A DNA stretch of 36,153 nucleotides from Chlorobaculum sp. (GTDB lineage Bacteria > Bacteroidota > Chlorobiia > Chlorobiales > Chlorobiaceae): NCBI GenBank assembly GCA_013334855.1, contig JAAXWU010000011.1, positions 1-36,153 on the forward strand, read 5' to 3'. Under the pieces are notes generated by a model. That model did no database searches. It saw nothing but the letters and a program-made list of their open reading frames with translations, and was not told where the DNA came from. Of the stretch, positions 618 through 15,621 are shown piece by piece (position 1 is the stretch's first letter; each line of letters begins with the position of its first letter). Made by a program: the position numbers and the translations under genes.

Positions 618-3600
618 ATGGCGCAGGAACCCATTAAAATTCTTATCGCCTCTCCGTCCGATGTTGCTGAAGAGCGGAAGATTGCTGAGGAGGTTATCAA
701 CGAGTGGAACATTCGGAATCGCGTGGAGCGCGGCTTTTCGCTGGATGCCGTGCTGTGGGAAACGCATGGTGCGCCGGAGAGCGGGGAGCGTGTCCAGGGT
801 ATTCTGAACCGGCAGTTTGTTGATAGCTGCCATTGCGCCATCGCCATATTCTGGACCAGAATCGGTACCGATACCGGTGTAGCGCCCGGTGGAGCGGTCG
901 AGGAGGTCGAGCGCCTGATGAGCAACGGAAAGCCGGTCATGTTCTATTTTTCAAGTGTTCCGATCTCTCCGGACGAGATCGATCCTGCGCAGAAACAACA
1001 ACTCGATGCATTCAAAACAGCTCTCCAGAAAGATGTCCTGTCAGAAAAATTCACTGATCGTCATGAGTTCAGACGCAAACTGACGCATCACCTCGATATA
1101 CAGGTGCGCCGCTGGTTTTGTTCATCTTCGGAGCAGGATAGCGATAAAAGCGCATGGCAATCGGTTGAAGATTTGCTGTGTTATCAGGCTTCGCTGAAAG
1201 AGGAACTTGGCTATATCCGCATACTCGGTCTTCCCGATGCAGAGCGCATCATGGTTAACCTGAACGACGACACCTTCGTGCCGCTACGGCTTTCACGGCG
1301 GCGTGATGCCGATTTTCTTCCAGGAAAAAAGCCTTTTCAGCAGGAACCGTCCGGCGAAGGATTCCTTATGCCCGATGAGGTGATGCGGCAGGCGTTCAGA
1401 AAGCGCAGGATGCTGCTCATCATCGGCGACGCAGGAGCGGGCAAAACGACGCTGCTCAAATATTATGCCCTATCCTGTCTTGAGGGAGACCGGTATAAAA
1501 AGCTCGGTTTTTCATCGCCGGTCAAGGTCTTTTATCTGCCGTTACGTTCGCTGGTCAATGCGGAGCGCGGGATTTTCCCTGCACTGCCCGCCAAACTTTC
1601 CGAGTGGGCGGCGAGGAACCAGTTGACCCTGACTCCTGACGTTTTCACGGCGTGGCTGCAATCCCGATCAGTGCTGGTGCTGCTCGACGGGCTCGATGAG
1701 ATCAGCGATCCTGAACTGAGAAAAAAAGCGTGCCAATGGATTGACGGCGCGTGGCGTGGGTTCACGAATGCCCGTTTTGTGGTGACGTCGAGAGGCACGG
1801 GGTATCGGCCACACGAGGGCGTCGAACTGAGCAGCGATTATGAGCGAGCCGATGTGCACGATTTCACGCATGAACAGCAGGAGCGATTCCTGACGAACTG
1901 GTTCAGGGCGGCGTTGCTGCGCGAGCCTCCTGAACAGGGTTTCAGCGATGAGGCGTGGCGGAAGCGACAGGAGGCGAAAGCCGCCGAACGAACGGCAAAG
2001 ATTCTCGAACATCTCAAAGAGGAGAAGAACAAGGGGTTGCGGCAGATTGCCACCATTCCCATGATTCTGCAGATCATGGCTATTCTCTGGAAAGAGCGCG
2101 ACCACCTGCCCAAAAGCCGCGACATGCTCTACAGAGCCGTGCTCAACTATCTGCTCTCTATTCGTGAACAACGGCGCGGGATCAATCCACCGCTCACCAC
2201 TGAAAACGCCCTCATGGTGCTTGGACCGGTTTCGCTCTGGATGCAGAAGGAGCTGAAGCGGGATGAGGTAGACCGGAGTGAAATGCAGCACAAAATGGAG
2301 GATACGCTCGCCCAGCTCGACAAACCTCCGAGTGCTGAAGTGTTCTGCGACTATCTGGTACAGCGCTCCAGCCTGCTGGTGGAGTATGGCGGCAAGGAGT
2401 ACCTTTTCAGGCACAAATCGTTCAGGGAGTATCTGGCGGGGGTGGAGTTTATGAAAATCGTCCATCGTACCACCGGCTATTTCGATACGCTGGTGGAGGG
2501 TTTTGACGATGACTGGTGGAGTGAACCGTTACGTTTTTTTATCGCCCAGTCAGATGCCGACACGTTCAATCTTTTCATGCAGAGGCTGTTCGACAAGATC
2601 AGTGACGATACTTTGCAGAAGAGGCTGGGCTTTCTGCTTACCCTCGTCGAGGAAGCGCCGCTGAAAAAGGTCGATGCCTTGTGCGAAAAGCTGTGTGATC
2701 CGGCGAACAGCGCCGTTCGGCAGCGGCTGCTTCTCGATTGCCTCAAGGTTATCGGCAAACCGTCTGCGCTTGAAACCCTTGCAAGGTTCAAATCCGAAAA
2801 ACTTGCCAGAAACAGGGATGTCGCCGGAAGGCTTGACGAGGTGATCATTGCCTCCGGTGAGGCGACATCCCAAAGATCGGTTACGGTTGTTTCTCGCAAC
2901 ATCGATTTGGCTACTCGTCCGCCCTTTTTCTATAACGAGTTTGAACATCGGGCGCAATATATCCTGATTCCGGGTAAACGATCACTGTTTTCGTTTATCG
3001 GAACAAAGCAATCCGATCTGTACTTTGCCAAATATCCGGTAACCAACAGGCTGTACCGGCGCTTTATCGATTATCTGCAATCGAAAAATCCAGACTGTGA
3101 AGCTCTTTTTCCGGCATCGGAATTCAGGGATGTATTGCTGGGAATAGCGAACAACCAGGAATGGGATAAAGGCTTTGCGGAATATCTGAAGGAGGGGAAA
3201 AACGACCTTGCCGGTCTGTTCCGTTCACGTAAAGATGAAGACCGGAAGTTCGGTGGTGATGACCAGCCGGTGGTCAGGATTACCTGGTATGCCGCCCGCT
3301 CCTATTGTTTGTGGTTGTCGCTCGTGGAGAGCAAGGGGAAGAACCGCGATCTCTATCGTCTGCCGGAGGAGCCTGAGTGGGAGTACGCCGCAGCCGGAAA
3401 GGAGAGGCGCGAATATCCGTGGGGAAATACCGCGCCAAACCCGAAACTGGCCAATTATGACAAGAGCAACATCGGAGCGACCACGCCGGTCGGCAGCTAT
3501 CCCGAAGGAGCAACGCCGGAAGGGCTGTACGACATGGCGGGCAACGTCTGGGAGTGGCAGGAGAGCCTTTACGACAATAAAAAGTACCCTGGCTCCCGTG

Positions 3601-3734
3601 CGTTGCGCGGGGGTTCGTGGCTCGTCGGTACTGACTCTCTGCGCTGCTCCTCCCGGGACTTCTACGTCCCGGTCAACTGGGGCAACAACGTCGGTTTTCG
3701 TGTCGTTCGCCCCAGTCCCCTCCTGGAACCCTGA
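618..3734 (+). CDS. DUF4062-NACHT-FGE/C-lectin protein 1 (putative DGR target)
   Basis: A 1038-residue predicted cytosolic STAND-type NTPase. Residues about 6-110 are DUF4062 (IKILIASPSDVAEER motif, a nucleotide-processing/TIR-like fold often fused to NACHT). The NACHT domain has a P-loop GDAGAGKT at 270-277 and Walker B VLVLLDGLDEI at 352-362. A helical/winged-helix part ends with the typical FRHKSFREYLAG motif. Residues about 795-1035 form an FGE-sulfatase/C-type-lectin domain (YPVTNRLYRRFI, EWEYAAAGKE, DMAGNVWEWQ, RGGSW...LRCSSR...GFRVVRP). Such domains serve as ligand-binding variable domains of DGRs, and 3621-3692 carries that signature. Related bacterial NACHT proteins act in antiphage defence; a sensor-effector role here is inference. 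It lacks the avd-like gene found after the other two copies. The start is fixed by an in-frame stop six bases upstream. Confidence 0.92.
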   Translation: MAQEPIKILIASPSDVAEERKIAEEVINEWNIRNRVERGFSLDAVLWETHGAPESGERVQGILNRQFVDSCHCAIAIFWTRIGTDTGVAPGGAVEEVERLMSNGKPVMFYFSSVPISPDEIDPAQKQQLDAFKTALQKDVLSEKFTDRHEFRRKLTHHLDIQVRRWFCSSSEQDSDKSAWQSVEDLLCYQASLKEELGYIRILGLPDAERIMVNLNDDTFVPLRLSRRRDADFLPGKKPFQQEPSGEGFLMPDEVMRQAFRKRRMLLIIGDAGAGKTTLLKYYALSCLEGDRYKKLGFSSPVKVFYLPLRSLVNAERGIFPALPAKLSEWAARNQLTLTPDVFTAWLQSRSVLVLLDGLDEISDPELRKKACQWIDGAWRGFTNARFVVTSRGTGYRPHEGVELSSDYERADVHDFTHEQQERFLTNWFRAALLREPPEQGFSDEAWRKRQEAKAAERTAKILEHLKEEKNKGLRQIATIPMILQIMAILWKERDHLPKSRDMLYRAVLNYLLSIREQRRGINPPLTTENALMVLGPVSLWMQKELKRDEVDRSEMQHKMEDTLAQLDKPPSAEVFCDYLVQRSSLLVEYGGKEYLFRHKSFREYLAGVEFMKIVHRTTGYFDTLVEGFDDDWWSEPLRFFIAQSDADTFNLFMQRLFDKISDDTLQKRLGFLLTLVEEAPLKKVDALCEKLCDPANSAVRQRLLLDCLKVIGKPSALETLARFKSEKLARNRDVAGRLDEVIIASGEATSQRSVTVVSRNIDLATRPPFFYNEFEHRAQYILIPGKRSLFSFIGTKQSDLYFAKYPVTNRLYRRFIDYLQSKNPDCEALFPASEFRDVLLGIANNQEWDKGFAEYLKEGKNDLAGLFRSRKDEDRKFGGDDQPVVRITWYAARSYCLWLSLVESKGKNRDLYRLPEEPEWEYAAAGKERREYPWGNTAPNPKLANYDKSNIGATTPVGSYPEGATPEGLYDMAGNVWEWQESLYDNKKYPGSRALRGGSWLVGTDSLRCSSRDFYVPVNWGNNVGFRVVRPSPLLEP
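3621..3692 (+). other. DGR-type variable region of paralogue 1
   Basis: The 72 bases after the RGGSW codons encode six variable codons, an invariant LRCSSR block, then eleven variable codons around an invariant CCG. Aligned with 9302-9373 and 12991-13062, all differences fall in codon positions 1 and 2; the third base is identical in all three copies. The 3' flank (GGTTTTCGTGTCGTTCGCC) is invariant and could include the IMH (initiation of mutagenic homing) site. Confidence 0.88.
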
Positions 3735-4138
3735 TTATCTGTTTTCTGAAAATCTGAAAGAAGAGAATTGACAATTGACGATGGATAAAGCAAGACAAGC
3801 CGATGGTGATGGCGATTTCGAAAAAAGAGGCTGTTTGAATAGATGATGATTAATCAGTTTCTCAGGGACAGGTTCAGAGTCATTCTGAACGAAGTGAAGA
3901 ATCCATTTTCAGTGGACTTCTATAAATTTATTATTATCAGTGAGTTACCAGACTTTTCTGGATTCTCCGCCCGACGGCGTCGGACTCAGAATGACGGAGA
4001 TCGCGAACGTGACATAATAATAAAAGACTCATTTTTGCTTTTGAGCCACCCCTTTGCAAGCGTATACCGCAAAGATCAGCGCAGATTCGGGTGAATCTCG
4101 GCTCCATTTGAAAGCAATGGTTTAGAACATCGATCATT
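3735..4138. other. Gene-free spacer with repeat remnants
   Basis: The first 35 bases resemble the AATCTGAAA-rich leader of the avd-like genes after the other paralogues (AATCTGAAAGAAGAGAAT), but no avd coding sequence follows, suggesting deletion. A palindromic interspersed repeat occupies about 3879-3995. At about 4060-4110 is another widely dispersed repeat type (CGCAAAGATCAGCGCAGATT). The open frames here run through these repeats and are not credible genes. Confidence 0.6.
3879..3995. repeat. Interspersed palindromic repeat
   Basis: The left arm GTCATTCTGAACGAAGTGAA and the right arm CGGACTCAGAATGAC are imperfect inverted copies flanking an AT-rich centre. The right part also holds a CCGACGGCGTCGG palindrome. 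This looks like a non-autonomous intergenic repeat; when translated it gives the familiar VILNEVKNP artefact. Confidence 0.65.
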
Positions 4139-5350
4139 ATGCAATCATCGGAAATATTCAACGCTGCGCGTATTGGCGGCATTGCGCTTCGCAATCGATT
4201 TATCCGTTCAGCGACGCATGAGGGGATGGCCAGCGCTGAGGGCGCTCCGACGGAGTCGCTTGAAAAGCTCTATGTTCGTCTTGCGAAAGGGGGTGTCGGC
4301 GCGAATGTCACCGGATACGCGGGGGTCATGCAGCAGGGAAAAAGCAATTTCCCCGGAATGCTGATGATAGACGACGATGCGCTGATACCCGCTTACCGGA
4401 AGGTTGTCGAGGCCACGCATCGCGAAGGCGCGCCGCTGATCATGCAGCTTGCCCATTGCGGTCGCCAGACCCGATCCGCAGTTACCGGAATGCGCACCGT
4501 CGCCCCATCAGCCGTGCGTGACCCCTACTACAGCGAAGAGGTTCCGCACGAGCTGACGGAGAATGAGATCAAGGCGATCATCGACTCCTTCGTCAAGGCG
4601 GCCGGGCGGGCGAAAGCCTCGGGATTCGACGCCGTGCAGTTGCACATGGCGCACGGCTATCTCTTGGCGCAATTCCTCTCACCCAACGCCAACCGGAGGC
4701 GAGACCGCTGGGGCGGCTCTCTCGAAAACCGTTTTCGGATCGTTTCGGAGATACTCGCCGGTATTGCGCGAAGCATCGGCGACTATCCGGTGCTGGCGAA
4801 AATCAACGGCTACGATGGCATGACCGGCGGGATGCGGCCAGAGGAGGCCGTGAAGGTCGCCATGATGCTCGAAGCCGCGGGATGTAGCGCCGTGGAGGTC
4901 TCCTCGGGCACGATTGCCGAAGGGCTGTCGATCATGCGCGGAGAGCGCGTGCCAATCGATGCGGTGCTCGCGGTCAACTTCAAATTCGCCTCCATCCCGA
5001 AGCCTCTCAAGCCATTGCTGAGCCGCATGCTGCCGGTGTTCGCGCCGAAAAGCCCAAAGCCTTTGCGAGGCTATAATCTCGATGTCGCCCGTGTCATAAA
5101 GAGCGCCGTATCGATTCCGGTGATTGTGGTCGGCGGCATTCATACCCTCGCGGAAGCGACGGAGGCCATCGTGAACGGAAGCGCCGATTTCGTGTCGATG
5201 TCGCGCCCGTTCATCATCGAACCGGCTCTCGTGAAGCGGTACGAGGAGGGCAGGCAGGAGGCTTCGAGATGCACCATGTGCAACTACTGCACGATCATGG
5301 TTGAAAAAGAGCCGCTTCGCTGCTGGAACGGACGACTGGCTAATGGATAA
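4139..5350 (+). CDS. Old Yellow Enzyme family NADH:flavin oxidoreductase
   Basis: A 403-residue FMN-dependent TIM-barrel oxidoreductase of the OYE/2,4-dienoyl-CoA reductase barrel family, predicted cytosolic. Supporting motifs are the N-terminal LRNRFIRSATHEGMA, the FMN-contacting MQLAHCGRQT, the substrate-site HMAHGYLLAQFLSP (His-x-x-His type), NRRRDRWGGSLENRFR, and the phosphate-binding VVGGIHTLAEA near the C-terminus. The tail has a CTMCNYC cluster, resembling the Cys-rich segment after the barrel in larger family members that carry Fe-S; whether a cluster forms here is unknown. The substrate cannot be predicted. The last codons (AAT GGA TAA) are already heptamer repeat, so the array supplies the stop codon and the final two residues may not be ancestral. 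Confidence 0.9.
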   Translation: MQSSEIFNAARIGGIALRNRFIRSATHEGMASAEGAPTESLEKLYVRLAKGGVGANVTGYAGVMQQGKSNFPGMLMIDDDALIPAYRKVVEATHREGAPLIMQLAHCGRQTRSAVTGMRTVAPSAVRDPYYSEEVPHELTENEIKAIIDSFVKAAGRAKASGFDAVQLHMAHGYLLAQFLSPNANRRRDRWGGSLENRFRIVSEILAGIARSIGDYPVLAKINGYDGMTGGMRPEEAVKVAMMLEAAGCSAVEVSSGTIAEGLSIMRGERVPIDAVLAVNFKFASIPKPLKPLLSRMLPVFAPKSPKPLRGYNLDVARVIKSAVSIPVIVVGGIHTLAEATEAIVNGSADFVSMSRPFIIEPALVKRYEEGRQEASRCTMCNYCTIMVEKEPLRCWNGRLANG

Positions 5351-5422
5351 TGGATAATGGCTAATGGATAATGGATAATGGATAATGGATAATGGATAAT
5401 GGATAATGGATAATGGATAATG
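5341..5422 (+). repeat. Heptanucleotide tandem array (TAATGGA)n
   Basis: About eleven nearly perfect units overlap the 3' end of the Old Yellow Enzyme gene and provide its TAA stop at 5348-5350. The unit has the same orientation relative to the upstream gene as in the other arrays. The segment after it (about 5437-5484) repeats the ~60 bp that follows the first array. Confidence 0.92.
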
Positions 5423-5493
5423 AAAAACGGCGTAGGAGTGAGGTGACTTGCCGGGGCGCTTGGCCTGCGTCCTTGCGGGACATTGCCGGTTAT

Positions 5494-5547
5494 CCTATTC
5501 GTCCCATTCGTCCCATAAGACCTATAAGTCCTATACGTCCCATTCTT
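5494..5547 (+). repeat. Nonanucleotide tandem array (CCTATAAGT-like)
   Basis: Six exact-length 9-bp units follow the pattern CCYATWMGW (CCTATTCGT, CCCATTCGT, CCCATAAGA, CCTATAAGT, CCTATACGT, CCCATTCTT). The array lies just upstream of the alkD-like gene. Related arrays with the same 9-bp phase occur at about 26803-26848 and 32096-32131. Confidence 0.85.
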
Positions 5548-5569
5548 TGTAAATAATACTGCACTTGCC

Positions 5570-6268
5570 ATGATCACCGCGATTCTCGCCCGTCTCGAAT
5601 CTCTTGCCGATGAGCCGACGGCGGGGATTCTTCAGCGCTTTTTCAAGACCGGCCCCGGTGAGTATGGCGAGGGCGACCGGTTTCGCGGCATTCGCGTGCC
5701 GGTGCTGCGCAAGCTTTGCCGCGAGTTCCGGCATGCGGGCATCGAGACGATTTCGGCACTGCTCGATTCGCCGTGGCACGAAGATCGCCTGCTCGCGCTG
5801 CTTCTGCTCATCGAGCGGTATCGCGCCTCCGGCGAAGAGGGGAGGGAAGTGTTCTACGACTTCTACTGCGCCAGCACCGCCCGCATCAACAACTGGGATC
5901 TGGTCGATCTCTCCGCGCCCTACATCGTTGGCCGCCACCTCGAAACGCGCCGCCGCTCGCCGCTCTACCGCTTCGTCCAGTCGCCCAGCCTCTGGGAGCG
6001 GCGCATCGCCATCGTCTCGACCTTCCACTTCATCCGCAACAACGACTTCGCCGACACCATCGCCCTCGCCGAACGGTTGCTCGCCGACCCCGAATCGCTG
6101 CTCCACAAAGCCACCGGCTGGATGCTCCGCGAAGTCGGCAAACGCGACCAGCCCGTCCTCGAAGCCTTCCTCGCCCGCCACGCCACCGTCATGCCAAGAA
6201 CGGCGCTACGCTACGCCATCGAGCGCTTCCCGGAGGAGCAGAGGCAGGAGTATTTGAAGGGGGGTTGA
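5570..6268 (+). CDS. AlkD-like DNA alkylation repair protein
   Basis: A 232-residue all-helical protein of the DNA alkylation repair (HEAT-like AlkC/AlkD) family, predicted to excise alkylated bases such as N3- and N7-alkylpurines in the cytosol. Characteristic segments are RGIRVPVLRKLCREF, the helix with NNWDLVDLSAPYIVG (Trp/Asp near the lesion site in this family), WERRIAIVSTFHFIR and HKATGWMLREVGKRD. The length matches the family norm. The 3' part (6053-6268) is duplicated in frame at the ends of two downstream avd-like genes. A heptamer array starts at the TGA stop. The assignment is from family motifs; activity is inferred. Confidence 0.9.
   Translation: MITAILARLESLADEPTAGILQRFFKTGPGEYGEGDRFRGIRVPVLRKLCREFRHAGIETISALLDSPWHEDRLLALLLLIERYRASGEEGREVFYDFYCASTARINNWDLVDLSAPYIVGRHLETRRRSPLYRFVQSPSLWERRIAIVSTFHFIRNNDFADTIALAERLLADPESLLHKATGWMLREVGKRDQPVLEAFLARHATVMPRTALRYAIERFPEEQRQEYLKGG
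6053..6268 (+). repeat. 3' end of alkD-like gene, present three times as direct repeat
   Basis: This 216-bp segment is nearly copied at 9619-9834 (also 216 bp), and its last 174 bp (6095-6268) at 13332-13505 (also 174 bp), without length change. The copies form the C-termini of the two chimeric avd-like genes. The direct repeats flank the second and third NACHT units and mark past recombination joints. Confidence 0.85.
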
Positions 6269-6329
6269 TAATGGATAATGGATAATGGATAATGGATAAT
6301 GGATAATGGATAATGGATAATGGATAATG
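6268..6329 (+). repeat. Heptanucleotide tandem array (TAATGGA)n
   Basis: About eight to nine units begin at the stop codon of the alkD-like gene and run to the leader of paralogue 2. The following 110 bases are almost identical to those before paralogue 3, so this array is part of the duplicated unit. Confidence 0.9.
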
Positions 6330-6374
6330 AAAGACGACGAAGCGGCGAGCGTCTTTTATTTGTATTTCAGCATT

Positions 6375-6442
6375 TATAATTCATGATTTGTCAGTAATTT
6401 CCCTCTTGTCCGGTCGTGCTGTCAAACTCATTCCCCTGAATT
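6375..6442 (+). promoter_or_regulatory. Conserved leader and -10 box of NACHT paralogue 2
   Basis: A TATAAT box at 6375-6380 lies 68 bases before the ATG, the same distance as in paralogue 3 and one more than in paralogue 1. The 48 bases 6395-6442 are shared by all three genes. The -35 region is weak (TCTTTT near 6352). There is no Shine-Dalgarno match, and an in-frame TGA lies six bases before the ATG. Confidence 0.5.
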
Positions 6443-9415
6443 ATGGCGCAGCAAAAGGTTCAAATCATCAAGGTGCTTATTGCTTCTCCCGGCGATGTTG
6501 CGGAGGAGCGGAAAATCGTGGCTGAAGAGATCGGCAAGTGGAATATTGCCAACAAGGAGGTCTGGAACATCGTGCTTGAGGCGGTGATGTGGGAAACCCA
6601 TGCCCACGCGGCTTCCGGGGAGAGGGCGCAGGGGATTCTCAATGCGCAGATTGTCGATTCTTGCGATTTTGCCATCGCTATGTTCCATTCGCGAATCGGC
6701 ACCGATACCGGTTTTTTCCCCGGCGGCGCGGTCGAAGAGGTGGAGCGAATGCTTGCGAAAAAGAAGCAGGTAATGTGCTTTTTCTCCGGGATGCCAGTGT
6801 CCATTGGCGCTGATCTCGATCAGCTCAAGGCGGTCAGAGCGTTCAAGGCTGAAATGCAATCGAAAGCGCTCTGTCCCGACTATGCCGACCTGAACGAATT
6901 CAGAACAAAAGTGGCGTTACAGCTTTCGCTTGCGCTGAAAGAGCGCATGGGCGTTTTGGATGAGGCTTTGGCGAGTTATCAGGGTTTGCTGAAGCGGGAG
7001 TTTGAAAATCTCAATCTCTCCGGCTCGTCGGCGATTGCGGCTTTTTCGGTGCCGCTGTCCGAAACCTTCGTGTCGTTGAGCCTCTCCGACACTATGCGCG
7101 GCGAAGCGCATCTATGCGGTGAACTCTCCGGCGACGCCATGCTGGACGGCAATCGTATCCGCACGCCTGAAGAGGTGATGAAGCTCGTGTTCAGGAACTA
7201 TCGTCTTTTACTGGTTATCGGCAATCCCGGATCGGGCAAGACTACTCTGCTGAAATATTACGCTTTATCGTGCCTCAACGGAGGGCATGAGGCGTTCGGA
7301 TTCACCTCGCCCGTGCCGGTGTTCTGGCTGCCGTTGCGCGAGATGATGCGTGGCGACGATGGCTACGGTTCGCTTGCGCTCAATCTCGCTCGCTGGTGCA
7401 AGCGAAATTGTCTCGATGAGGTGACGCCGCAGTACGCTTCCGGGTGGCTCGATGCGTCGGAATCGCTGGTGCTGCTCGATGGACTGGACGAAGTCAGCGA
7501 GGTGCGTGACCGCATCGAGATGTGCCGCTGGATCGACCTGATGGCGAAACGTTACGGCAAAGCCCGTTTCGTGGTGACCTCGCGCAGCACGGGTTACCGG
7601 AAGGGCGACGGTATCGAGATCGAGACGCCGCATGTTCGCGCCGACATCATGGATTTCAACGACGCGCAGCAGGCCGAGTTTCTTGGGCGCTGGTTCAGGG
7701 CGGCGTACCGGCGGGAGTTGCCGCCGAATGGTGAAGATGAAGGCAACTGGCGAAAGACGCAGGAGCGGAAAGCGGATGAAAAGGCGGCGACCATTACCGC
7801 CTATCTTGCCGAGGAACAGAACCGGAGCATCAAGACGCTTGCCGAAGTGCCGCTCTTGTTGCAGATCATGGCGCTGCTCTGGAAGGAGCATGAATACCTG
7901 CCGAGTGGCCGCATGAAGCTCTACGATGCCGCGCTGGATTATCTGCTCGACTATCGCGACCGCCTGAAAAACCTGAAGCCGTTGCTCTCCACCGACGATG
8001 CCCGCCGGGTGCTTGGGCCGGTTTCGCTCTGGATGCAGGAGGCGGTGAAGCGCGACGAGGCGAAGCGTGCGGCGGTGCATGGCAGGATGGAGGAGGTGCT
8101 GGCGACGCTGAATACGACGGTTGACGCAACGGCTTTTTGCCGGAATCTGGTTGACCGGGCAGGAGTGCTGGTTGAATATGGCGATGACGACTATGTGTTC
8201 CGTCACAAGACCTTTCGGGAGTATCTCGCCGCCGTGCAGCTCGACAAGAACATCCGTCGAACGTCGGGATTTCTGGACGGACTGGTTCCCCATTTTGGGG
8301 ATGACTGGTGGTCTGAAGTGTTCCGTTTCTTCATCGCCAGGCTCGACGATGCGGAGCTGTTCGAGCGCTTCATGCTCAAGCTGTTCGAATCGTCAGTGAC
8401 GGAGAGCCTCACGCCGAAGCAGCAGGAGTTGCTTTTGACGCTGGTGCGTGAAGCGCCGCAGAAGCAGTATGGCGAACTGATAACGAAACTGCTCGATACG
8501 ACAACCACGGCAAATCGTCAACGCTATCTGGTTGAGTGTCTCAAGACTATCGGCAAGAAGGATGCCCTCGATGCGGTACTTCAGCTTGAAAAGAGGAGTG
8601 ACAGCGGCCTCTTCATCAATCCGCTGGAACTCGACGCGCACTATATCCCGATCAGGGGAGGCGCTTTCGAATACTCCTTGACAGGGAACAAGGTGACGCT
8701 CCCGGATTTCCGGCTGGCTCGCTATCCGGTGACCAATCGGCAGTACCGCAGGTTTATCGAGTATCTGAAAACCGGCAGGATCGATGATCTTGAATTGATG
8801 CCGGTTGCGCGTTTCAGGGAAGCGCTTCTGGCTTTTGCGCAAAAAGAAGGGTTAGAGTGGCTTGCTGAAAAAACACAAGGCGATGCCGACCTTGCCGGTG
8901 AGTTCCGTTCCGGTTGTGACGACGACAAGCGATTCAATGGCGAGGAGCATCCGGTGGTTGGCGTCACCTGGTATGCTGCCCGCTCCTATTGTTTGTGGCT
9001 GTCGCTCGTGGAGAGCAAGGGGGAGTGTATCGATCGCTGTCGTTTGCCGGATGAAACCGAATGGGAGTACGCCGCAGCCGGGAAAGAGGGGCGCATCTAC
9101 CCGTGGGGTGATACCGAACCCACATCGAAACATGCCAATTATGACAGAAATGAAGGGGCAACCACGCCGGTTGGAAGCTACACTGAAGGAGCGACTCCAG
9201 AGGGGTTGTATGATATGGCAGGCAACGTCTGGGAGTGGCAGGAGAACCTGGCTGGCGATACTAACTTTCCAGGTGCCCGTGCGTTGCGCGGGGGATCGTG
9301 GGTCAACGATGCTGTCGATCTGCGCTGCTCCTCCCGGCTCAGCTACGGCCCGGGCAGCTGGATCGGCAGCGTCGGTTTTCGTGTCGTTCGCCCCAGTCTT
9401 GCCGTGGAACCCTGA
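6443..9415 (+). CDS. DUF4062-NACHT-FGE/C-lectin protein 2 (putative DGR target)
   Basis: A 990-residue paralogue of the 618-3734 product with the same architecture. DUF4062 is at about 8-115 (IKVLIASPGDVAEER). NACHT has P-loop GNPGSGKT at 260-267 and Walker B LVLLDGLDEV near 342-351, with the FRHKTFREYLAAVQ motif closing the STAND part. The FGE-like domain runs from about 755 (DFRLARYPVTN) to the C-terminus. It is the most divergent copy; the segment before the FGE core is shorter than in copies 1 and 3. The first ~20 codons and the leader are almost identical to copy 3, while the rest differs strongly, indicating recombination or conversion. A chimeric avd-like gene follows 65 bases downstream and is probably cotranscribed. 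A role as a diversifying sensor of foreign or self ligands is inference from the architecture. Confidence 0.92.
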   Translation: MAQQKVQIIKVLIASPGDVAEERKIVAEEIGKWNIANKEVWNIVLEAVMWETHAHAASGERAQGILNAQIVDSCDFAIAMFHSRIGTDTGFFPGGAVEEVERMLAKKKQVMCFFSGMPVSIGADLDQLKAVRAFKAEMQSKALCPDYADLNEFRTKVALQLSLALKERMGVLDEALASYQGLLKREFENLNLSGSSAIAAFSVPLSETFVSLSLSDTMRGEAHLCGELSGDAMLDGNRIRTPEEVMKLVFRNYRLLLVIGNPGSGKTTLLKYYALSCLNGGHEAFGFTSPVPVFWLPLREMMRGDDGYGSLALNLARWCKRNCLDEVTPQYASGWLDASESLVLLDGLDEVSEVRDRIEMCRWIDLMAKRYGKARFVVTSRSTGYRKGDGIEIETPHVRADIMDFNDAQQAEFLGRWFRAAYRRELPPNGEDEGNWRKTQERKADEKAATITAYLAEEQNRSIKTLAEVPLLLQIMALLWKEHEYLPSGRMKLYDAALDYLLDYRDRLKNLKPLLSTDDARRVLGPVSLWMQEAVKRDEAKRAAVHGRMEEVLATLNTTVDATAFCRNLVDRAGVLVEYGDDDYVFRHKTFREYLAAVQLDKNIRRTSGFLDGLVPHFGDDWWSEVFRFFIARLDDAELFERFMLKLFESSVTESLTPKQQELLLTLVREAPQKQYGELITKLLDTTTTANRQRYLVECLKTIGKKDALDAVLQLEKRSDSGLFINPLELDAHYIPIRGGAFEYSLTGNKVTLPDFRLARYPVTNRQYRRFIEYLKTGRIDDLELMPVARFREALLAFAQKEGLEWLAEKTQGDADLAGEFRSGCDDDKRFNGEEHPVVGVTWYAARSYCLWLSLVESKGECIDRCRLPDETEWEYAAAGKEGRIYPWGDTEPTSKHANYDRNEGATTPVGSYTEGATPEGLYDMAGNVWEWQENLAGDTNFPGARALRGGSWVNDAVDLRCSSRLSYGPGSWIGSVGFRVVRPSLAVEP
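9302..9373 (+). other. DGR-type variable region of paralogue 2
   Basis: This 72-nt segment has the same phase and length as the other two. The variable codons again keep the third base (C, T or G) seen in the paralogues while positions 1 and 2 differ. Flanks are RGGSW codons upstream and GFRVVRPS codons downstream. The variable blocks read VNDAVD and LSYGPGSWIGSV. Confidence 0.88.
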
Positions 9416-9417
9416 CA

Positions 9418-9475
9418 ATCTGATATCTGATAATCTGAAATCTGAAAATCTGAAATCTGAAAATCTGAAAAAGGA
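9418..9475 (+). repeat. Short direct repeats between NACHT gene and avd-like gene
   Basis: The spacer is built of AATCTGAAA/TCTGATA-like repeats. The equivalent spacer at about 13107-13149 is the same but lacks one 15-bp unit (TCTGAAATCTGAAAA), a typical slippage difference. The spacer ends with the AAGGAG ribosome binding site of the next gene. Confidence 0.75.
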
Positions 9476-9480
9476 GAATC

Positions 9481-9834
9481 GTGGCCAGTCAGGAGATGCT
9501 CATCGTGAAAAAGTCCTACGACTTTTCGAAATGGCTGCTGAACCATACGGGAAAATTTCCGAAAAGTTACCGCTTCAGCGTAGCCGTGCGCCTTGAAAAT
9601 ACCATGCTTGAGTTCACCGACACCCTCGCCCTCGTCGGACGCCTTCTCGCCGACCCCGAATCGCTGCTCCACAAAGCCACCGGCTGGATGCTCCGCGAAG
9701 TCGGCAAACGCGACCAGCCCGTCCTCGAAGCCTTCCTCGCCCGCCACGCCCCCGCCATGCCGCGCACCGCGCTACGCTACGCCATCGAGCGCTTGCCGGA
9801 GGAGCAACGAAAGCAGTATTTGAAGAAGAGTTGA
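9481..9834 (+). CDS. avd: Chimeric gene: Avd-like N-terminus fused to AlkD C-terminus (copy 1)
   Basis: Product of 117 residues starting at GTG, five bases after a good AAGGAG site. Residues 1 to about 46 (IVKKSYDFSKWLLNHTGKF, then PKSYRFSVAVRLENTMLEF) match the start of the bacterial Avd/four-helix-bundle family, the accessory protein that assists the DGR reverse transcriptase. From about TDTLALVGRLLADPE onward the product is the last 72 residues of the neighbouring AlkD-like protein, keeping its GWMLREVGKRD helix. The DNA joint is near 9613-9624, where both parents share TTC(G/A)CCGACACC. Overall length is near that of normal Avd proteins, so two HEAT helices replace the last helices of the bundle. 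It may be a broken relic or a functional hybrid; the sequence does not decide. The stop leads straight into a heptamer array. Confidence 0.8.
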   Translation: MASQEMLIVKKSYDFSKWLLNHTGKFPKSYRFSVAVRLENTMLEFTDTLALVGRLLADPESLLHKATGWMLREVGKRDQPVLEAFLARHAPAMPRTALRYAIERLPEEQRKQYLKKS

Positions 9835-9874
9835 TAATGGATAATGGATAATGGATAATGGATAATGGATAATG
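9833..9874 (+). repeat. Heptanucleotide tandem array (TAATGGA)n
   Basis: About six units start at the stop codon of the first chimeric avd-like gene, in the same position relative to the alkD 3' end as the array at 6268. It is shorter by about three units, as expected from slippage after duplication. Confidence 0.9.
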
Positions 9875-9919
9875 AAAGACGACGAAGAGGCGAGCGTCTT
9901 TTATTTGTAGTTCTGCATT

Positions 9920-9987
9920 TATAATTCATGATTTGTCAGTAATTTCCCTCTTGTCCGGTCGTGCTGTCAAACTCATTCCCCTGAATT
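9920..9987 (+). promoter_or_regulatory. Conserved leader and -10 box of NACHT paralogue 3
   Basis: The TATAAT box at 9920-9925 lies 68 bases before the ATG. The leader is nearly identical to that of paralogue 2, with a few substitutions such as GTAGTTCTGC for GTATTTCAGC. It has no Shine-Dalgarno match and the same in-frame TGA six bases before the ATG. Confidence 0.5.
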
Positions 9988-12900
9988 ATGGCGCAGCAAA
10001 ATGTTCAAATCATCAAGGTGCTTATTGCTTCTCCCGGCGATGTTGCGGAAGAGCGAAGAATAGCGGAAACTGTAGTTCATGAGTGGAACACTCGCCATGA
10101 TGGAAAAGAGGGTATCTGGTTGAAACCTGTGTTGTGGGAACTGGATACTGCGCCGGAAACGGGAGAGAGGCCACAAGAGATCATCAACGGGCAGATCGTG
10201 GATGAGTGCCATTGCGCCATCGGTATTTTCTGGACGCGAATCGGCACTGATACCGGTGTCGCTCCAGGTGGGGCAGTTGAAGAGATAGAGAGATTAGTAA
10301 AAACGAAAAAACCGGTGATGATCTACTTTTCAGATATACCGGTTTCGCGTTCTAAAATAGATAAAAAGCAGGAGACAAAACTCGATAAATTCAAAGCGAA
10401 AATCAGAAAGAAAAACCTTGCACATGGTTATTCAGACCTCAAGGACTTTCGGAATGATCTTGCCCGGCATCTCGATTTACAAATTACCGGATGGTTTTGC
10501 GATTCTGATTCTGTGCCTGAAAAAATTATAGAATTGGATTTCGCTGTTGACCTTCAGCGATATAAAACTGCGCTGAAAAATGAACTTGGGACGATTCGTA
10601 TTCTTGGGTTGCCGGGTATCGAGCGGATCGATGTGAATCTCGATGAGCAGACTTTCGTGCCGTTGCGCTTTTCGAGGCGGCATGAGTTGCCGGTATCACC
10701 CGGAGACGTAATGCCGAAAGAGCGGTTTGGTGAGGAGGCGCTTGAGCCGGACAGGGTTATGAAGCTTGCCTTCGAACATCGGCGGATGCTGCTCGTGATT
10801 GGCGATGCCGGGGCCGGGAAAACAACGCTTCTGCAATATTATGCGCTCTCCTGCCTCGATGGTTCGCGCTTTGACAGGCTTGGTTTTTCGGCATCGGTCA
10901 ACGTTTTTTACTTGCCGTTGCGCGAGGTCGAGCAGGAGCGCTCGTTGCCGGAGAATCTTGCCTTGTGGGCAAAGCGGCATCACCGGACGATCAATGCGGC
11001 GGCTTTCGAGCATTGGCTTGGTTCCGGCAATACCCTCGTGCTGTTTGACGGACTTGATGAGATCGGCGTTTCCGAGGAGCGGAAAAAGATGTGCGGCTGG
11101 ATCGACGGTGCGTGGAGCGGGTTCGAGCATGTTCGCTTCGTCATTACCTCTCGCCGTTCCGGTTATCGCAAGGAGGACGGGGTGGAACTGCAAGCCGATT
11201 ATGAGCAGGTCGATGTGCTCGATTTCACCGCTGAACAGCAGGAGCGCTTTCTGAAGAACTGGTTCAATGCCGCCCTGTTGCGCGACACGCCGGACGAGGG
11301 TATTTCGGCAGAGGAGTGGCCGGAGATGGCCAATGCCAAAGCCGAAGCGAAAACAGTGAAGATCATCGCGCATCTGAAGGAGGAGAAGAACCGGGGGTTG
11401 AAGCAGATCGCGGCTATTCCGATGATTCTCCAGATCATGGCCATTCTCTGGAAGCGTGACGAGTACCTGCCCGAAACCCGTGAAAAGCTTTACAGCTCGG
11501 TGCTCGACTACCTGCTGGAACTCAGGGACAAACACAAGGATATAAAGGCTCCGATGAGCGCCGAGCGGTCGCGGATGGTGCTGGAACCGGTTGCGCTCTG
11601 GATGCAGGAGGAGCTGAAAAAGGACGAAGTCGGTCGCGAACAGATGCACGAGAGGATGCAGAAGGAACTCGACGGCATGGTTGGCCGCAACTTCACCCCG
11701 CCTCCGGCGGATGAGTTCGGCCGACACCTGGTCGATCGGGCGGCCTTGCTGGTCGAACTCGGAACCCGCTCGAAAACCTATCTGTTCCGGCACAAGACCT
11801 TCCGGGAGTATCTGGCCGGAGTCGATCTGGTGCGTAAGGTTTTGCGTGATCCAAACCGTTTAGACGCTTTTCTTGCAGATTTCGGTAACGGTTGGTCGGA
11901 TGAGATGCTGCGAACCTTCATGGCCAATGCTGATGCCGAAAGTTTCGATCTCATAATGGATAAACTTTTCGATGAGAAGTTTAACATCGAATGGAATCAG
12001 AATCAGAGGTTGCTGCTCTTCTCCCTCATCGACGAGGCCCCGCTTCGAAAAGTCGATGCGCTGTGTCGTCGCCTGCTTGAGCCTAACACGGCGGCTCGGC
12101 AGTTCATGATGCTCGATTGCCTGAACGAAACCGCTATGCCCGAAGCCATTGTTGCTTTGCAGAATTTTCTTAAAAGCGGGCTTACAAAGAACAGGAAGTT
12201 GATGGATAAGGCAAGAGAGGTATATGTTTCGTTAAACAACCGGACAGGAAAAGAAAATGTATCGAGCAGGAAAACCGCCATGCCCGTGATCGGGAAATCG
12301 GGTGTTCTGGAGCCATTCTTCGAAAATCCTTTCGAGAAGGATGCCCGCTACCTCCTGATTCCGGGCAACGGAACCAATGTTCGAGACACCTTCTTTGCCC
12401 GCTACCCCGTGACCAACAGGCTCTACCGGCGCTTTATCGACTACCTGCAATCGAAAAATCCGGACTTTGAGTCGCTTTTTCCGGCATCGGGATTCAGTAA
12501 AGTATTGCTGGGAATAGCGAACAACCAGGAATGGGATAAAGGCTTTGCGGAATATCTGAAGAAGGGGAAAAACGACCTTGCCGGTCTGTTCCGTTCAAGT
12601 GAAGATGAAGACCGGAAATTCGGTGGTGATGACCAGCCGGTGGTCAGCATCACCTGGTATGCCGCCCGCTCCTATTGTTTGTGGTTGTCGCTCGTGGAGA
12701 GCAAGGGGAAGAACCGCGATCTCTATCGTCTGCCGGATGAAACTGAATGGGAGTACGCCGCAGCCGGAAAGGAGAGGCGCGAATATCCGTGGGGTAAAGC
12801 TGAACCAACGCCGAAACTGGCCAATTATGACAAGAGCAATATCGGAGCGACCACGCCGGTCGGCAGCTATCCCGAAGGAGCAACGCCGGAAGGGCTGTAC

Positions 12901-13104
12901 GACATGGCAGGCAACGTCTGGGAGTGGCAGGAGAATCGTTACGGGCATGAAAAGTATCCTGACGCCCGTGCGTTGCGCGGGGGTTCGTGGTACATCAATT
13001 CTGTCAATCTGCGCTGCTCCTCCCGGATCATCTGCTACCCGGGCGGCGGGGACTCCTACATCGGTTTTCGTGTCGTTCGCCCCAGTCTTGCCGTGGAACC
13101 CTGA
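9988..13104 (+). CDS. DUF4062-NACHT-FGE/C-lectin protein 3 (putative DGR target)
   Basis: A 1038-residue paralogue, the same length as copy 1. DUF4062 covers about 8-115; the P-loop GDAGAGKT is at 272-279, Walker B LVLFDGLDEI is near 350-359, and the FRHKTFREYLAG motif is present. The FGE-like domain starts near 801 (TFFARYPVTN) and ends RALRGGSW...LRCSSR...GFRVVRP. The protein is a mosaic: its first ~20 codons and leader match copy 2, whereas most of the rest, including the stretch NRLYRRFIDYLQSKNPD, matches copy 1. The region about 10260-10620 is visibly more AT-rich than its flanks, hinting at a separate origin. A second avd-like chimera follows 50 bases downstream with its own AAGGAG site. 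Function as a diversifying conflict-system sensor is inferred. Confidence 0.92.
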   Translation: MAQQNVQIIKVLIASPGDVAEERRIAETVVHEWNTRHDGKEGIWLKPVLWELDTAPETGERPQEIINGQIVDECHCAIGIFWTRIGTDTGVAPGGAVEEIERLVKTKKPVMIYFSDIPVSRSKIDKKQETKLDKFKAKIRKKNLAHGYSDLKDFRNDLARHLDLQITGWFCDSDSVPEKIIELDFAVDLQRYKTALKNELGTIRILGLPGIERIDVNLDEQTFVPLRFSRRHELPVSPGDVMPKERFGEEALEPDRVMKLAFEHRRMLLVIGDAGAGKTTLLQYYALSCLDGSRFDRLGFSASVNVFYLPLREVEQERSLPENLALWAKRHHRTINAAAFEHWLGSGNTLVLFDGLDEIGVSEERKKMCGWIDGAWSGFEHVRFVITSRRSGYRKEDGVELQADYEQVDVLDFTAEQQERFLKNWFNAALLRDTPDEGISAEEWPEMANAKAEAKTVKIIAHLKEEKNRGLKQIAAIPMILQIMAILWKRDEYLPETREKLYSSVLDYLLELRDKHKDIKAPMSAERSRMVLEPVALWMQEELKKDEVGREQMHERMQKELDGMVGRNFTPPPADEFGRHLVDRAALLVELGTRSKTYLFRHKTFREYLAGVDLVRKVLRDPNRLDAFLADFGNGWSDEMLRTFMANADAESFDLIMDKLFDEKFNIEWNQNQRLLLFSLIDEAPLRKVDALCRRLLEPNTAARQFMMLDCLNETAMPEAIVALQNFLKSGLTKNRKLMDKAREVYVSLNNRTGKENVSSRKTAMPVIGKSGVLEPFFENPFEKDARYLLIPGNGTNVRDTFFARYPVTNRLYRRFIDYLQSKNPDFESLFPASGFSKVLLGIANNQEWDKGFAEYLKKGKNDLAGLFRSSEDEDRKFGGDDQPVVSITWYAARSYCLWLSLVESKGKNRDLYRLPDETEWEYAAAGKERREYPWGKAEPTPKLANYDKSNIGATTPVGSYPEGATPEGLYDMAGNVWEWQENRYGHEKYPDARALRGGSWYINSVNLRCSSRIICYPGGGDSYIGFRVVRPSLAVEP
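12991..13062 (+). other. DGR-type variable region of paralogue 3
   Basis: This 72-nt segment is collinear with those of copies 1 and 2, with invariant third codon positions and variable first and second positions. Its blocks read YINSVN and IICYPGGGDSYI around the constant LRCSSR. The flanks before and after are almost identical to copy 1 and copy 2, so divergence is confined to this segment. Confidence 0.88.
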
Positions 13105-13154: not shown

Positions 13155-13505
13155 GTGGCCAGTCAGGAGATGCTCATCGTGAAAAAGTCCTACGACTTTT
13201 CGAAATGGCTGCTGAACCATACGGGAAAATTTCCGAAAAGTTACCGCTTCAGCGTAGCCGTGCGACTTGAAAATACCATGCTTGAGTTCACCGAACTTGT
13301 CGCGGTGGCCAACATGCGAGCCGCCAAACGGTCGCTGCTCCACAAAGCCACCGGCAGGATGCTCCGCGAAGTCGGCAAACGCGACCAGCCCGTCCTCGGA
13401 GCCTTCCTCGCCCGCCACGCCCCCGCCATGCCCCGCACAGCGTTACGCTACGCCATCGAGCGCTTGCCGGAGGAAGAGCGGAAGGGGTGGTTGAAGAGGG
13501 GGTGA
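13155..13505 (+). CDS. avd: Chimeric gene: Avd-like N-terminus fused to AlkD C-terminus (copy 2)
   Basis: Product of 116 residues from a GTG start behind AAGGAG. Its first ~46 residues are identical to the first chimera, but it keeps more of Avd (TELVAVANMRAAKR) before switching to AlkD sequence at SLLHKATG. The DNA joint lies in TCGCTGCTCCACAAAGCC (13332-13349), 42 bases further into alkD than the joint of the first chimera, so the two fusions arose separately or one was later reshaped. The AlkD Trp in GWMLREVG is Arg here (GRMLREVG), so the tail is not under the same constraint. The Avd half still includes the FPKSYRF and RLENTMLEF helices. No reverse transcriptase follows, unlike complete DGRs. 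It is a relic or hybrid. Confidence 0.8.
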   Translation: MASQEMLIVKKSYDFSKWLLNHTGKFPKSYRFSVAVRLENTMLEFTELVAVANMRAAKRSLLHKATGRMLREVGKRDQPVLGAFLARHAPAMPRTALRYAIERLPEEERKGWLKRG

Positions 13506-13610: not shown

Positions 13611-14837
13611 ATGATACTTAAAAGCATAAGGCTTGAAAATTTCCGGATTATCGAAGAGGCTCAGCTTGATCTCGGACGTCGTCTGACATTGTTTAGTGGT
13701 GCTAATGGTTCCGGAAAGACCTCTGTCATGGAGGGGCTGTCGATAACTCTTGGATCCGTTCTTACTCATTTGCCTGAAGTGAGCGGTCGCGCTTTCAGTA
13801 AAACAGGCGAGGAGATTCGTCAGTTCGAGAACAAAAAAGCGCCCTATTGTCGAATCTCAATTGAAACTGTTCAGGGATTGAAATGGGATCGTATGCAAAA
13901 GCGGGACAAAAGCAGAAACACTGCACGGTTGTTGCCGTCAGATGGCTTCGGTGTTCGAGAGCTTCATCGATATGTCGATGGTGAAATGATCGACCCGATC
14001 AACAGAGACGAAAGGTTTCTGTTGCCGGTTTTTGCTTTCTACGGAGTGAGTCGGGCATTACTTAATCCACCATACACAAGAAAGGGTTTTCCCAAAACGC
14101 ACAAACGTCTTGAAGCGCTTCAGGGAGCCCTTGAGGCTAGCGTTTCGTTCAAATCGGCATTTATCTGGTTTTACAACAAGGAAAATGAAGAATTTCGTCA
14201 TAAACAGGCTGAGCAGAGTTTTGAGGTGACCCTTAAAGAACTCGACACTGTGCGGCGGGCTATTGCCGGAATGTTTCCGGATATTTCTGAACCTCATATT
14301 GAGGTCAATCCTTTGCGGTTTGTGGTCAGGCAAGGGGCGGAATTGCTTGATATTATGCAGTTGAGTGATGGTTACAAGACCTTGCTTGCTCTGGTGATCG
14401 ATCTGAGCCGACGTATGGCCATGGCCAACCCTCACCTCGATGATCCTCTTTCTGCGGAAGCCGTCGTGATGATTGATGAAATCGATCTTCATCTGCACCC
14501 ATCATGGCAACAGCGCGTGATCGGCGACTTGCTGAAGACCTTTCCGAACACCCAGTTTATTGTGACTACCCACTCTCCGTACATCATAGAATCGGCAAAC
14601 AACAACCTCAAACGTCACCAGATCAGAAATCGATCAATTGAAAGCGAAGATATCCGTCGGCTTGTTCCGCTCGATCCCGCAGATACGTCGGCATATTTCA
14701 TGCGTGGGAAGGAAGGTATCGAGTCGCTGATGGATACGGAACTCGGTCTTCTGGATGATCGTCTGATCGAGCCGTTCAACCAGATGACGATGCTGTTTGA
14801 CCGGATGCGCGATATCGAGTGGGGAGAGAGCCAATGA
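13611..14837 (+). CDS. AAA/ABC-like ATPase (OLD/SMC-type) of a putative defence pair
   Basis: A 408-residue cytosolic ATPase of the AAA_21/COG3950 type related to RecF/OLD-family ATPases. Walker A is GANGSGKT at 30-37, an ABC-like signature LSDG is at 251-254, Walker B plus catalytic acidic residues VVMIDEID ends at 289-292 and is followed by LHLHPSWQ, and the switch histidine is H321 in VTTHSPYII. The N-terminal IRLENFRIIEEA strand and the long helical insertion between Walker A and the signature fit this family. It lacks a TOPRIM domain, so it is not a complete OLD nuclease. Its stop overlaps the start of the next gene (ATGA), indicating translational coupling to a nuclease-like partner. 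Such pairs are common in antiphage systems; that role is inferred. Confidence 0.85.
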   Translation: MILKSIRLENFRIIEEAQLDLGRRLTLFSGANGSGKTSVMEGLSITLGSVLTHLPEVSGRAFSKTGEEIRQFENKKAPYCRISIETVQGLKWDRMQKRDKSRNTARLLPSDGFGVRELHRYVDGEMIDPINRDERFLLPVFAFYGVSRALLNPPYTRKGFPKTHKRLEALQGALEASVSFKSAFIWFYNKENEEFRHKQAEQSFEVTLKELDTVRRAIAGMFPDISEPHIEVNPLRFVVRQGAELLDIMQLSDGYKTLLALVIDLSRRMAMANPHLDDPLSAEAVVMIDEIDLHLHPSWQQRVIGDLLKTFPNTQFIVTTHSPYIIESANNNLKRHQIRNRSIESEDIRRLVPLDPADTSAYFMRGKEGIESLMDTELGLLDDRLIEPFNQMTMLFDRMRDIEWGESQ

Positions 14838-15343
14838 CAATATCAGTTGCCGGTTATGAACATTGCGTTTGTTGCGGCAGGAGGCGTCCTCATTGTTTAT
14901 GCGATGGTGAATTGGCATTTGAAGAAAACGGGAAGAAAATCCGGTTGACTCTCAGAAGTGATGAAGAGGGCGTCGCGCTGGTTCTTGACGGCTGCGTTTT
15001 CAGGGATGATGAGCCGAAATGTGACGGGCTGTTTCTCTGGAAGAAGGGCACATCGAAAAAGTACGCTATTCTGGTGGAATTAAAAGGTGTCGATATAGAG
15101 CAAGCATTCAAACAGATCGCTTATGTGCGGAGCAATCGCCTTGAGTATCGTCAAATTGTGGAAACATTCATGTCAGATGTCGGCACTTCAACGGTGGTTG
15201 AAAAAGCGGTGATTGTCAGCAATGGAGCGCTCACAAAACCTCAGTGGGTAAAGTTTGAGAATCAGTTTGGATTCAGAGTTTTACCTGTTCTCGATTCGGA
15301 TGCCACGACTCGGGTGACAGATGCGAGAGAGCTGTGCCGTTGA
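14834..15343 (+). CDS. PD-(D/E)XK nuclease-like protein, partner of the ATPase
   Basis: A 169-residue product. I chose the ATG at 14834, which overlaps the ATPase stop (ATGA) behind GGGAGAGAG; an upstream GTG at 14819 is possible. The N-terminus has a CVCCG...CLC cluster that may bind zinc. The centre has Asp64 in CDGLFLW and Glu82-x-Lys84 in ILVELKG, followed by Gln90 and a helix AFKQIAYVR. This D...ExK pattern on adjacent strands is the hallmark of PD-(D/E)XK endonucleases. No named family was recognised. With the ATPase it forms a plausible two-gene effector module in which the ATPase senses and the small protein cuts nucleic acid. That mechanism is inference; the coupling and motifs are seen. 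Confidence 0.7.
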   Translation: MTISVAGYEHCVCCGRRRPHCLCDGELAFEENGKKIRLTLRSDEEGVALVLDGCVFRDDEPKCDGLFLWKKGTSKKYAILVELKGVDIEQAFKQIAYVRSNRLEYRQIVETFMSDVGTSTVVEKAVIVSNGALTKPQWVKFENQFGFRVLPVLDSDATTRVTDARELCR

Positions 15344-15555: not shown

Positions 15556-15586
15556 CTTCAGTTCACCTCGGCTCGATTCCGTTTTT

Positions 15587-15621
15587 CATTATCAATTATC
15601 AACTATCCATTATCCATTATT
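15587..15621 (-). repeat. Heptanucleotide tandem array (TAATGGA)n, minus orientation
   Basis: On the minus strand this reads TAATGGATAATGGATAGTTG and onward, starting exactly at the TAA stop (15617-15619) of the prolyl oligopeptidase gene. The orientation relative to the upstream gene matches the other four arrays. Confidence 0.85.

Follow-up and report, generated by a model that had tools for sequence, protein, structure and literature searches.

Three NACHT-FGE genes of Chlorobaculum with the footprint of a diversity-generating retroelement whose cassette has probably been lost

A stretch of 36,153 nucleotides from Chlorobaculum sp. (GenBank contig JAAXWU010000011.1), referred to below as the window, contains three paralogous genes whose ends vary in the first and second codon positions and not in the third. 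This raises the question of what wrote these gene ends and whether the writer is still present. The original prediction attributed them to a diversity-generating retroelement (DGR) and expected both a template repeat (TR) and a DGR-type reverse transcriptase (RT) in the same genome. The reading that we favor, with a probability of about 0.77, is that the window carries DGR-diversified NACHT-FGE sensors and that their cassette decayed in cis and was probably lost.

Variable ends of three paralogous genes

The genes, their variable repeats (VRs) and the adjoining flanks are as follows.

618..3734, + strand: variable-protein gene 1, 1038 aa, with NACHT at 264-431 (1.9e-13) and FGE at 800-1031 (5.3e-40)
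6443..9415, + strand: variable-protein gene 2, 990 aa, with a DUF4062-like N-terminus (below cut-off), NACHT and FGE
9988..13104, + strand: variable-protein gene 3, 1038 aa, with a DUF4062-like N-terminus (below cut-off), NACHT and FGE
3621..3692, + strand: VR1, from gapless alignment and third-position tests
9302..9373, + strand: VR2, on the same basis
12991..13062, + strand: VR3, on the same basis
3693..3716, + strand: invariant 24-nt flank of VR1, located where the TR and VR of relatives have their conserved 3' part
9374..9397, + strand: invariant flank of VR2, from the three-copy comparison
13063..13086, + strand: invariant flank of VR3, from the three-copy comparison

In all three paralogues a NACHT domain, above cut-off, is combined with a C-terminal FGE domain, and the VR closes the gene within its last 37 codons. 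The predicted FGE/C-type-lectin fold of the host domain was borne out by PF03781 matches in all three genes (1.7e-43 to 9.3e-38) and by a sequence match to TvpA (2y3c, 9.3e-7, residues 115-236), which was outscored in the same search by FGE-fold enzymes and PorK. An AlphaFold model of the FGE domain built with 17 sequences had a mean pLDDT of 55.7, with values below 50 in the VR stretch, and supports no claim made here. For the N-terminal domain of gene 1 a HEPN model matched below cut-off and no family was found above it. The PADLOC match to PDC-S60 is restricted to the first ~165 aa. The domain architecture suggests that the window proteins are immune-sensor-like, with a putative role in sensing or defense.

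A recount of the three 72-nt segments agreed with the prediction in coordinates, in the gapless alignment and in the number of variable sites, which is 28; as had been stated, they lie in codon positions 1 and 2 and none in position 3, and the count for each of the first two is 14. All three copies have the same DNA in the LRCSSR codons, in the CCG codon and in the GGTTTTCGTGTCGTTCGCC flank, also as described. That the pattern is unlike ordinary divergence can be seen from the part of the FGE region that lies upstream of the segments in these genes, where 60, 47 and 111 variable sites occupy positions 1, 2 and 3 (214 aligned codons) and half of the differences are thus in the third position. 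The difference in third-position share, 0/28 versus 111/218, has a Fisher p of 1.3e-8, and the probability of finding no third-position change in 24 codons is 2.4e-8. If the variable segment and the 24-nt flank are taken together, none of the 32 third positions differs in any of the three pairs, whereas 14.9, 5.4 and 14.2 differences would be expected from the divergence of the 600 nt upstream. The silent sites of the window VRs are uniform, as after a reset to a template. Since the upstream regions have diverged and the tips carry no silent differences, the paralogues appear to be old and their tips to have been made uniform at silent sites recently while being varied elsewhere.

In the mechanism proposed for such gene ends, an RNA copy of an AAC-rich template would be reverse transcribed with errors at adenines, after which the cDNA would replace ~100 nt at the 3' ends of the variable-protein genes. 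The replacement would set the silent sites back to the template and randomize codon positions 1 and 2. We suggest that mutagenic retrohoming as in known DGRs wrote the window VRs, and the flank at 3693..3716 may be homing-initiation-like.

Other features lie close to these genes. Tandem arrays of the heptamer GATAATG are found at gene borders of the duplicated region (378-412, 5367-5422, 6267-6329 and 9833-9874), with related heptamer DNA in reversed orientation near 15578-15620; the GATAATG arrays may have served duplication or recombination. An ATPase encoded at 13611-14837 matches Septu PtuA models (2e-92) and is followed by a small ORF at 14819-15343 that has no PADLOC match. These two could form a defense pair with an unrecognized partner.

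Templates and cassettes in related genomes

The sequence CTGCGCTGCTCCTCCCGG is used here as the core that would identify the TR family, which has an AAC-rich body. This invariant 18-base core was found in 21 of 86 genomes of the family, two of which (G046 and G049) have single one-mismatch matches in a context that is not that of a VR. In the sister genus the core occurs at gene ends and recurs ~650-700 nt downstream, this time in an AAC-rich copy that precedes an RT, with avd in between; this gives the order VR gene, avd, TR, RT. The RT of these relatives is a plain RVT_1 protein with 8ub7_A, an entry titled 'Reverse transcriptase', as its best solved relative (1.9e-53), which we take to be the RT of the Bordetella phage BPP-1 DGR, and the small gene before it is Avd according to the curated model NF033474 (100.8 bits, cut-off 80). 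The Avd and RT of BPP-1 are related to those of the relatives. With regard to a pair of sites for the initiation of mutagenic homing (IMH/IMH*), the TR of these cassettes has AAT where VRs mostly have AGT; the window VRs also have AGT, and no window TR was found for comparison. Two of the matched DGR RTs in the sister genus, L059 (G065) and L054 (G083), each contain one internal stop codon, so decay may be under way there too.

The TRs of relatives make it possible to ask where the variable sites of the window fall on a template, with the restriction that such a test rests on these TRs and not on the window's own. Fifteen TRs were located, three of which were left out because of their body length. 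In the gapless alignment with the TR of G080, 27 of the 28 variable sites coincide with a template A, as do 2 of the 44 invariant sites (p = 2e-16). For the 12 TRs of equal length, several of which are near-identical and hence do not provide 12 independent tests, the corresponding ranges are 23-27 of 28 and 1-5 of 44. Variable sites of the window are thus almost confined to template adenines of relatives, which supports the predicted adenine-directed change of an AAY-rich template. Differences between the G080 TR and the window segments are also found at five third positions and at one first position where the template does not have A.

The same directionality is found within the relatives. 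Thirteen genomes with both repeats provided 26 VR/TR pairs, of which 21 from 11 genomes were used after removal of five pairs of unequal length (G077 and G060 had only such pairs). In the core and body, to which the count was confined with exclusion of the 5' boundary, 232 of 401 template adenines were changed as opposed to 1 of 739 other bases, and no change was in a third position. With the 5' boundary included the mismatches were 198 at A and 54 at non-A (407 A and 670 non-A sites); counted separately, the 5' 18 nt had 80 of 177 adenines and 19 of 201 other bases changed. The VR pattern required GG[TC]TTTCG after the body, which leaves VRs with an altered flank in G083 (L045, near 13446) and G034 (L017) uncounted. 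Within the genus of the window, 11 of 18 VRs could be compared at equal length with the G080 TR, namely those that aligned gapless or were read as such. The letters that these VRs carry at template-A sites are A 127, G 109, T 71 and C 12 times. Among them 30 of the 32 A sites of the template are variable, and 14 of the 64 non-A sites vary as well, which indicates that older template differences or point changes are also present. The variable non-A sites are mostly T (9 of 21 T sites), as would be expected if templates differ between lineages.

The template test bears directly on an explanation that needs no retroelement, in which ordinary positive selection acts together with gene conversion between the paralogues. 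Uniform silent sites could result from conversion alone, and the paralogues are close together. Yet this would leave unexplained why variable sites lie on the template adenines of other species, and the avd remnants described below would find no explanation either. Ordinary divergence and conversion among paralogues are contradicted by the template test, and we consider this explanation extremely improbable.

Remnants of the cassette and the search for a writer

Downstream of VR2 and VR3, at the place that avd takes in complete cassettes, the window contains truncated avd genes that continue in frame into an unrelated tail.

9481..9609, + strand: truncated avd after VR2, NF033474 DivGenRetAVD positions 1-45 of 104 (33.6 bits, cut-off 80)
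9610..9834, + strand: DNA-alkylation-repair tail that continues the reading frame of this avd piece, 90% identical at the DNA level to the 3' end of the gene at 5570-6268
13155..13331, + strand: truncated avd after VR3, NF033474 positions 1-60 of 104 (46.4 bits, cut-off 80)
13332..13505, + strand: DNA-alkylation-repair tail that continues the reading frame of the avd piece after VR3, 89% identical at the DNA level
5570..6268, + strand: complete DNA-alkylation-repair gene (PF08713, 2e-64) to which the tails are related; it is not part of the retroelement

The fusion ORFs span 9481-9834 and 13155-13505, and their two joints differ by ~50 nt in position. Both avd pieces stay below the curated cut-off, and no avd was found downstream of VR1. 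In another genome (G012, L087 on C127, 3915-4271) a VR gene is followed by an avd that stops at ~80 aa and then by a further VR gene; this avd ends in a stop codon, with no fusion seen. The adenine footprint and the uniformity of the silent sites were seen directly, as were the avd-TR-RT cassettes of sister genomes and the fusion of a truncated avd to an unrelated tail. Together they suggest that a cassette once stood in the neighborhood of the window and decayed after the last round of diversification. The window sensors are probably frozen now.

The TR and the DGR-type RT that had been expected in the same genome did not turn up in its assembly (2.55 Mb in 233 contigs, 88% complete). The core pattern with up to one mismatch gave three matches, all of them window VRs, and a DNA search with a relative's TR returned the same three VRs and no further TR-like DNA. 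Runs of AAY inside the window at 994, 14598 and 28286 were dismissed by eye as TR candidates for lack of a VR-like context. The best match to a relative's DGR RT is only 27% identical. Seven RVT_1 matches, two of them in one ORF, were assigned to a group II intron, RT-Cas1, Drt8-like, UG13b and AbiP2-like RTs; the genome thus has several defense-type RTs next to an RT-Cas1 fusion (L001-L007). The original prediction had named, as one outcome that would speak against it, a template-free genome with ordinary substitutions. The first part describes what was found by core pattern and DNA similarity; the second does not, since the differences are not ordinary. With an assembly of this completeness and fragmentation the TR and RT could sit in the missing part, and repeats also break assemblies.

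The main rival is a writer that acts in trans and is absent from the assembly, with TR, Avd and RT intact in an unassembled part of the genome, on a plasmid or phage, or in other cells. Silent sites that are uniform over three old paralogues imply that the writing was recent, and besides the incomplete assembly this scenario is favored by the trans action and the structural variants with intact RT reported for Thiohalocapsa PB-PSB1 (PMC10907252). Cognate RTs (≥70% identity) are also frequent among the genomes of the sister genus (17 of 65). Among the matches listed, however, no cognate RT was found in any of the 21 genomes of the window's own genus, including a single-contig genome with two VRs, and each of the 18 genus segments that were read closes an open gene, with no TR among them. 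Plasmid and phage matches to the RT (2744 and 153 records, respectively) all stayed below 60% identity, with 51.2% and 39.5% as the best listed, and a scan of IMG/VR for the core gave four matches, none with a VR or TR context. A writer in trans is a possibility to be taken seriously, but we do not think it probable. If, on the other hand, none of the seven VR-bearing genomes of the genus has the cassette any longer, it would have to have been lost several times, separately and fairly recently.

A second DGR type exists in the genus, at L089 (G017, C375, 4911-6100) and L090 (G005, C69, 4905-6100), with a TR just downstream of an RT that is ~40% identical and with the motif RNCRSAYR...VGFRLVFVPQ, read by eye. 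This motif differs from that of the window VRs, so the second type does not fit them, and no such RT was among the matches in the window's own genome; it was rejected as the writer.

The distribution of VR genes in the family is patchy. DNA matching the TR was found in 7 of 21 genomes of the genus, from which the 18 segments derive, and in at least 25 of 65 genomes of the sister genus (match of at least 100 nt, counted by hand without inspection of each and often with 10 candidates scored). Addition of three sister-genus genomes with core VRs only (G053, G055 and G066) brings the latter number to 28. A cognate RT was found in 17 of these 28 and in none of the seven VR-bearing genomes of the genus, a difference with a Fisher p of 0.008 in a set of genomes that are not independent and several of which are incomplete.

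Such a patchy distribution would also agree with horizontal transfer of genes that had already been diversified in a DGR-bearing relative, in which case the lineage never had an active writer. A comparison with G001 argues against this. The genome of G001 is a single contig of 2.80 Mb with two VRs, and neither a TR nor a cognate RT nor an avd was found in it. Gene 3 has its neighborhood in common with its G001 counterpart, and the two genes differ at 11% of upstream third positions, yet their VRs are different, with 15 differences in first and second positions and none in third positions, where 3.6 would be expected (P of none = 0.02). Writing thus went on after the lineages split. The avd remnants in cis also speak against transfer, and we regard it as unlikely. 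The DNA downstream of the G001 counterpart follows the window up to the start of avd and then diverges, as if a second loss of a different kind had taken place there.

The preferred reading, decay of a cassette in cis, can be extended to the genus as a whole. DGR-written sensors would then outlive their writer as a rule: diversification would come in episodes, in which the RT and template are either resident for a time or provided by mobile elements or other strains, and with their disappearance the selected sensor versions would be locked in. We put this forward only tentatively and consider it rather doubtful. If it were true, the genus would present a hypermutated immune repertoire as a natural series of frozen states.

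Relation to known systems

The kind of system described here is known and its orphan state has precedent; what stands out is that the search of a whole genus yielded no writer. The footprint of a DGR could be recognized and assigned to a template family without its own template, by means of sister genomes. No cognate RT was seen in any of the seven VR-bearing genomes of the genus and in 11 of the 28 of the sister genus, some of them incomplete, and this suggests that DGR surveys that start from the RT miss such targets. A genus with hypermutated NACHT-FGE sensors and no detectable writer also provides a setting in which to ask whether such sensors persist after diversification stops. In open-licence PubMed Central no paper on writer-less variable repeats in this genus was found, which is not proof of absence.

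The prototype of these elements is the DGR of Bordetella phage BPP-1, which introduces adenine-specific changes at the 3' end of a gene with a C-type-lectin fold. Its target is a phage receptor-binding protein, and all its parts act in cis. TvpA of Treponema denticola is a DGR target of different architecture. It resembles the window proteins in having an FGE-type C-type-lectin variable domain, and differs in coming from an unrelated organism.

DGRs of Chlorobiaceae were listed in 2012 in the DiGReF survey, with two VRs for Chlorobium phaeobacteroides DSM 266 and four for Pelodictyon phaeoclathratiforme BU-1 (PMC3521204). They belong to the same bacterial group, have several VRs per genome, and stand in a survey in which FGE-type targets are said to be frequent (PMC3521204); they were found via their RT, whereas the genome of the window yielded neither a DGR RT nor a TR and has truncated avd genes. 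Other papers report that DGRs are enriched in a group that includes Chlorobi (PMC8144416) and that DGRs and FGE-type domains are associated with conflict systems (PMC7159879), and a cyanobacterial survey mentions a degraded cassette of which the RT alone is left (PMC7517822). For the orphan state a parallel is Thiohalocapsa PB-PSB1, in which degenerate DGR loci have been described, part of them supplied in trans and part accompanied by structural variants that are intact (PMC10907252). There, intact copies occur in the genome or in structural variants, as opposed to none found among the 21 genomes of the window's genus. In both cases the target joins NACHT (NACHT/STAND in Thiohalocapsa) to a C-terminal C-type-lectin/FGE domain and the degenerate loci miss parts of their machinery (PMC10907252).
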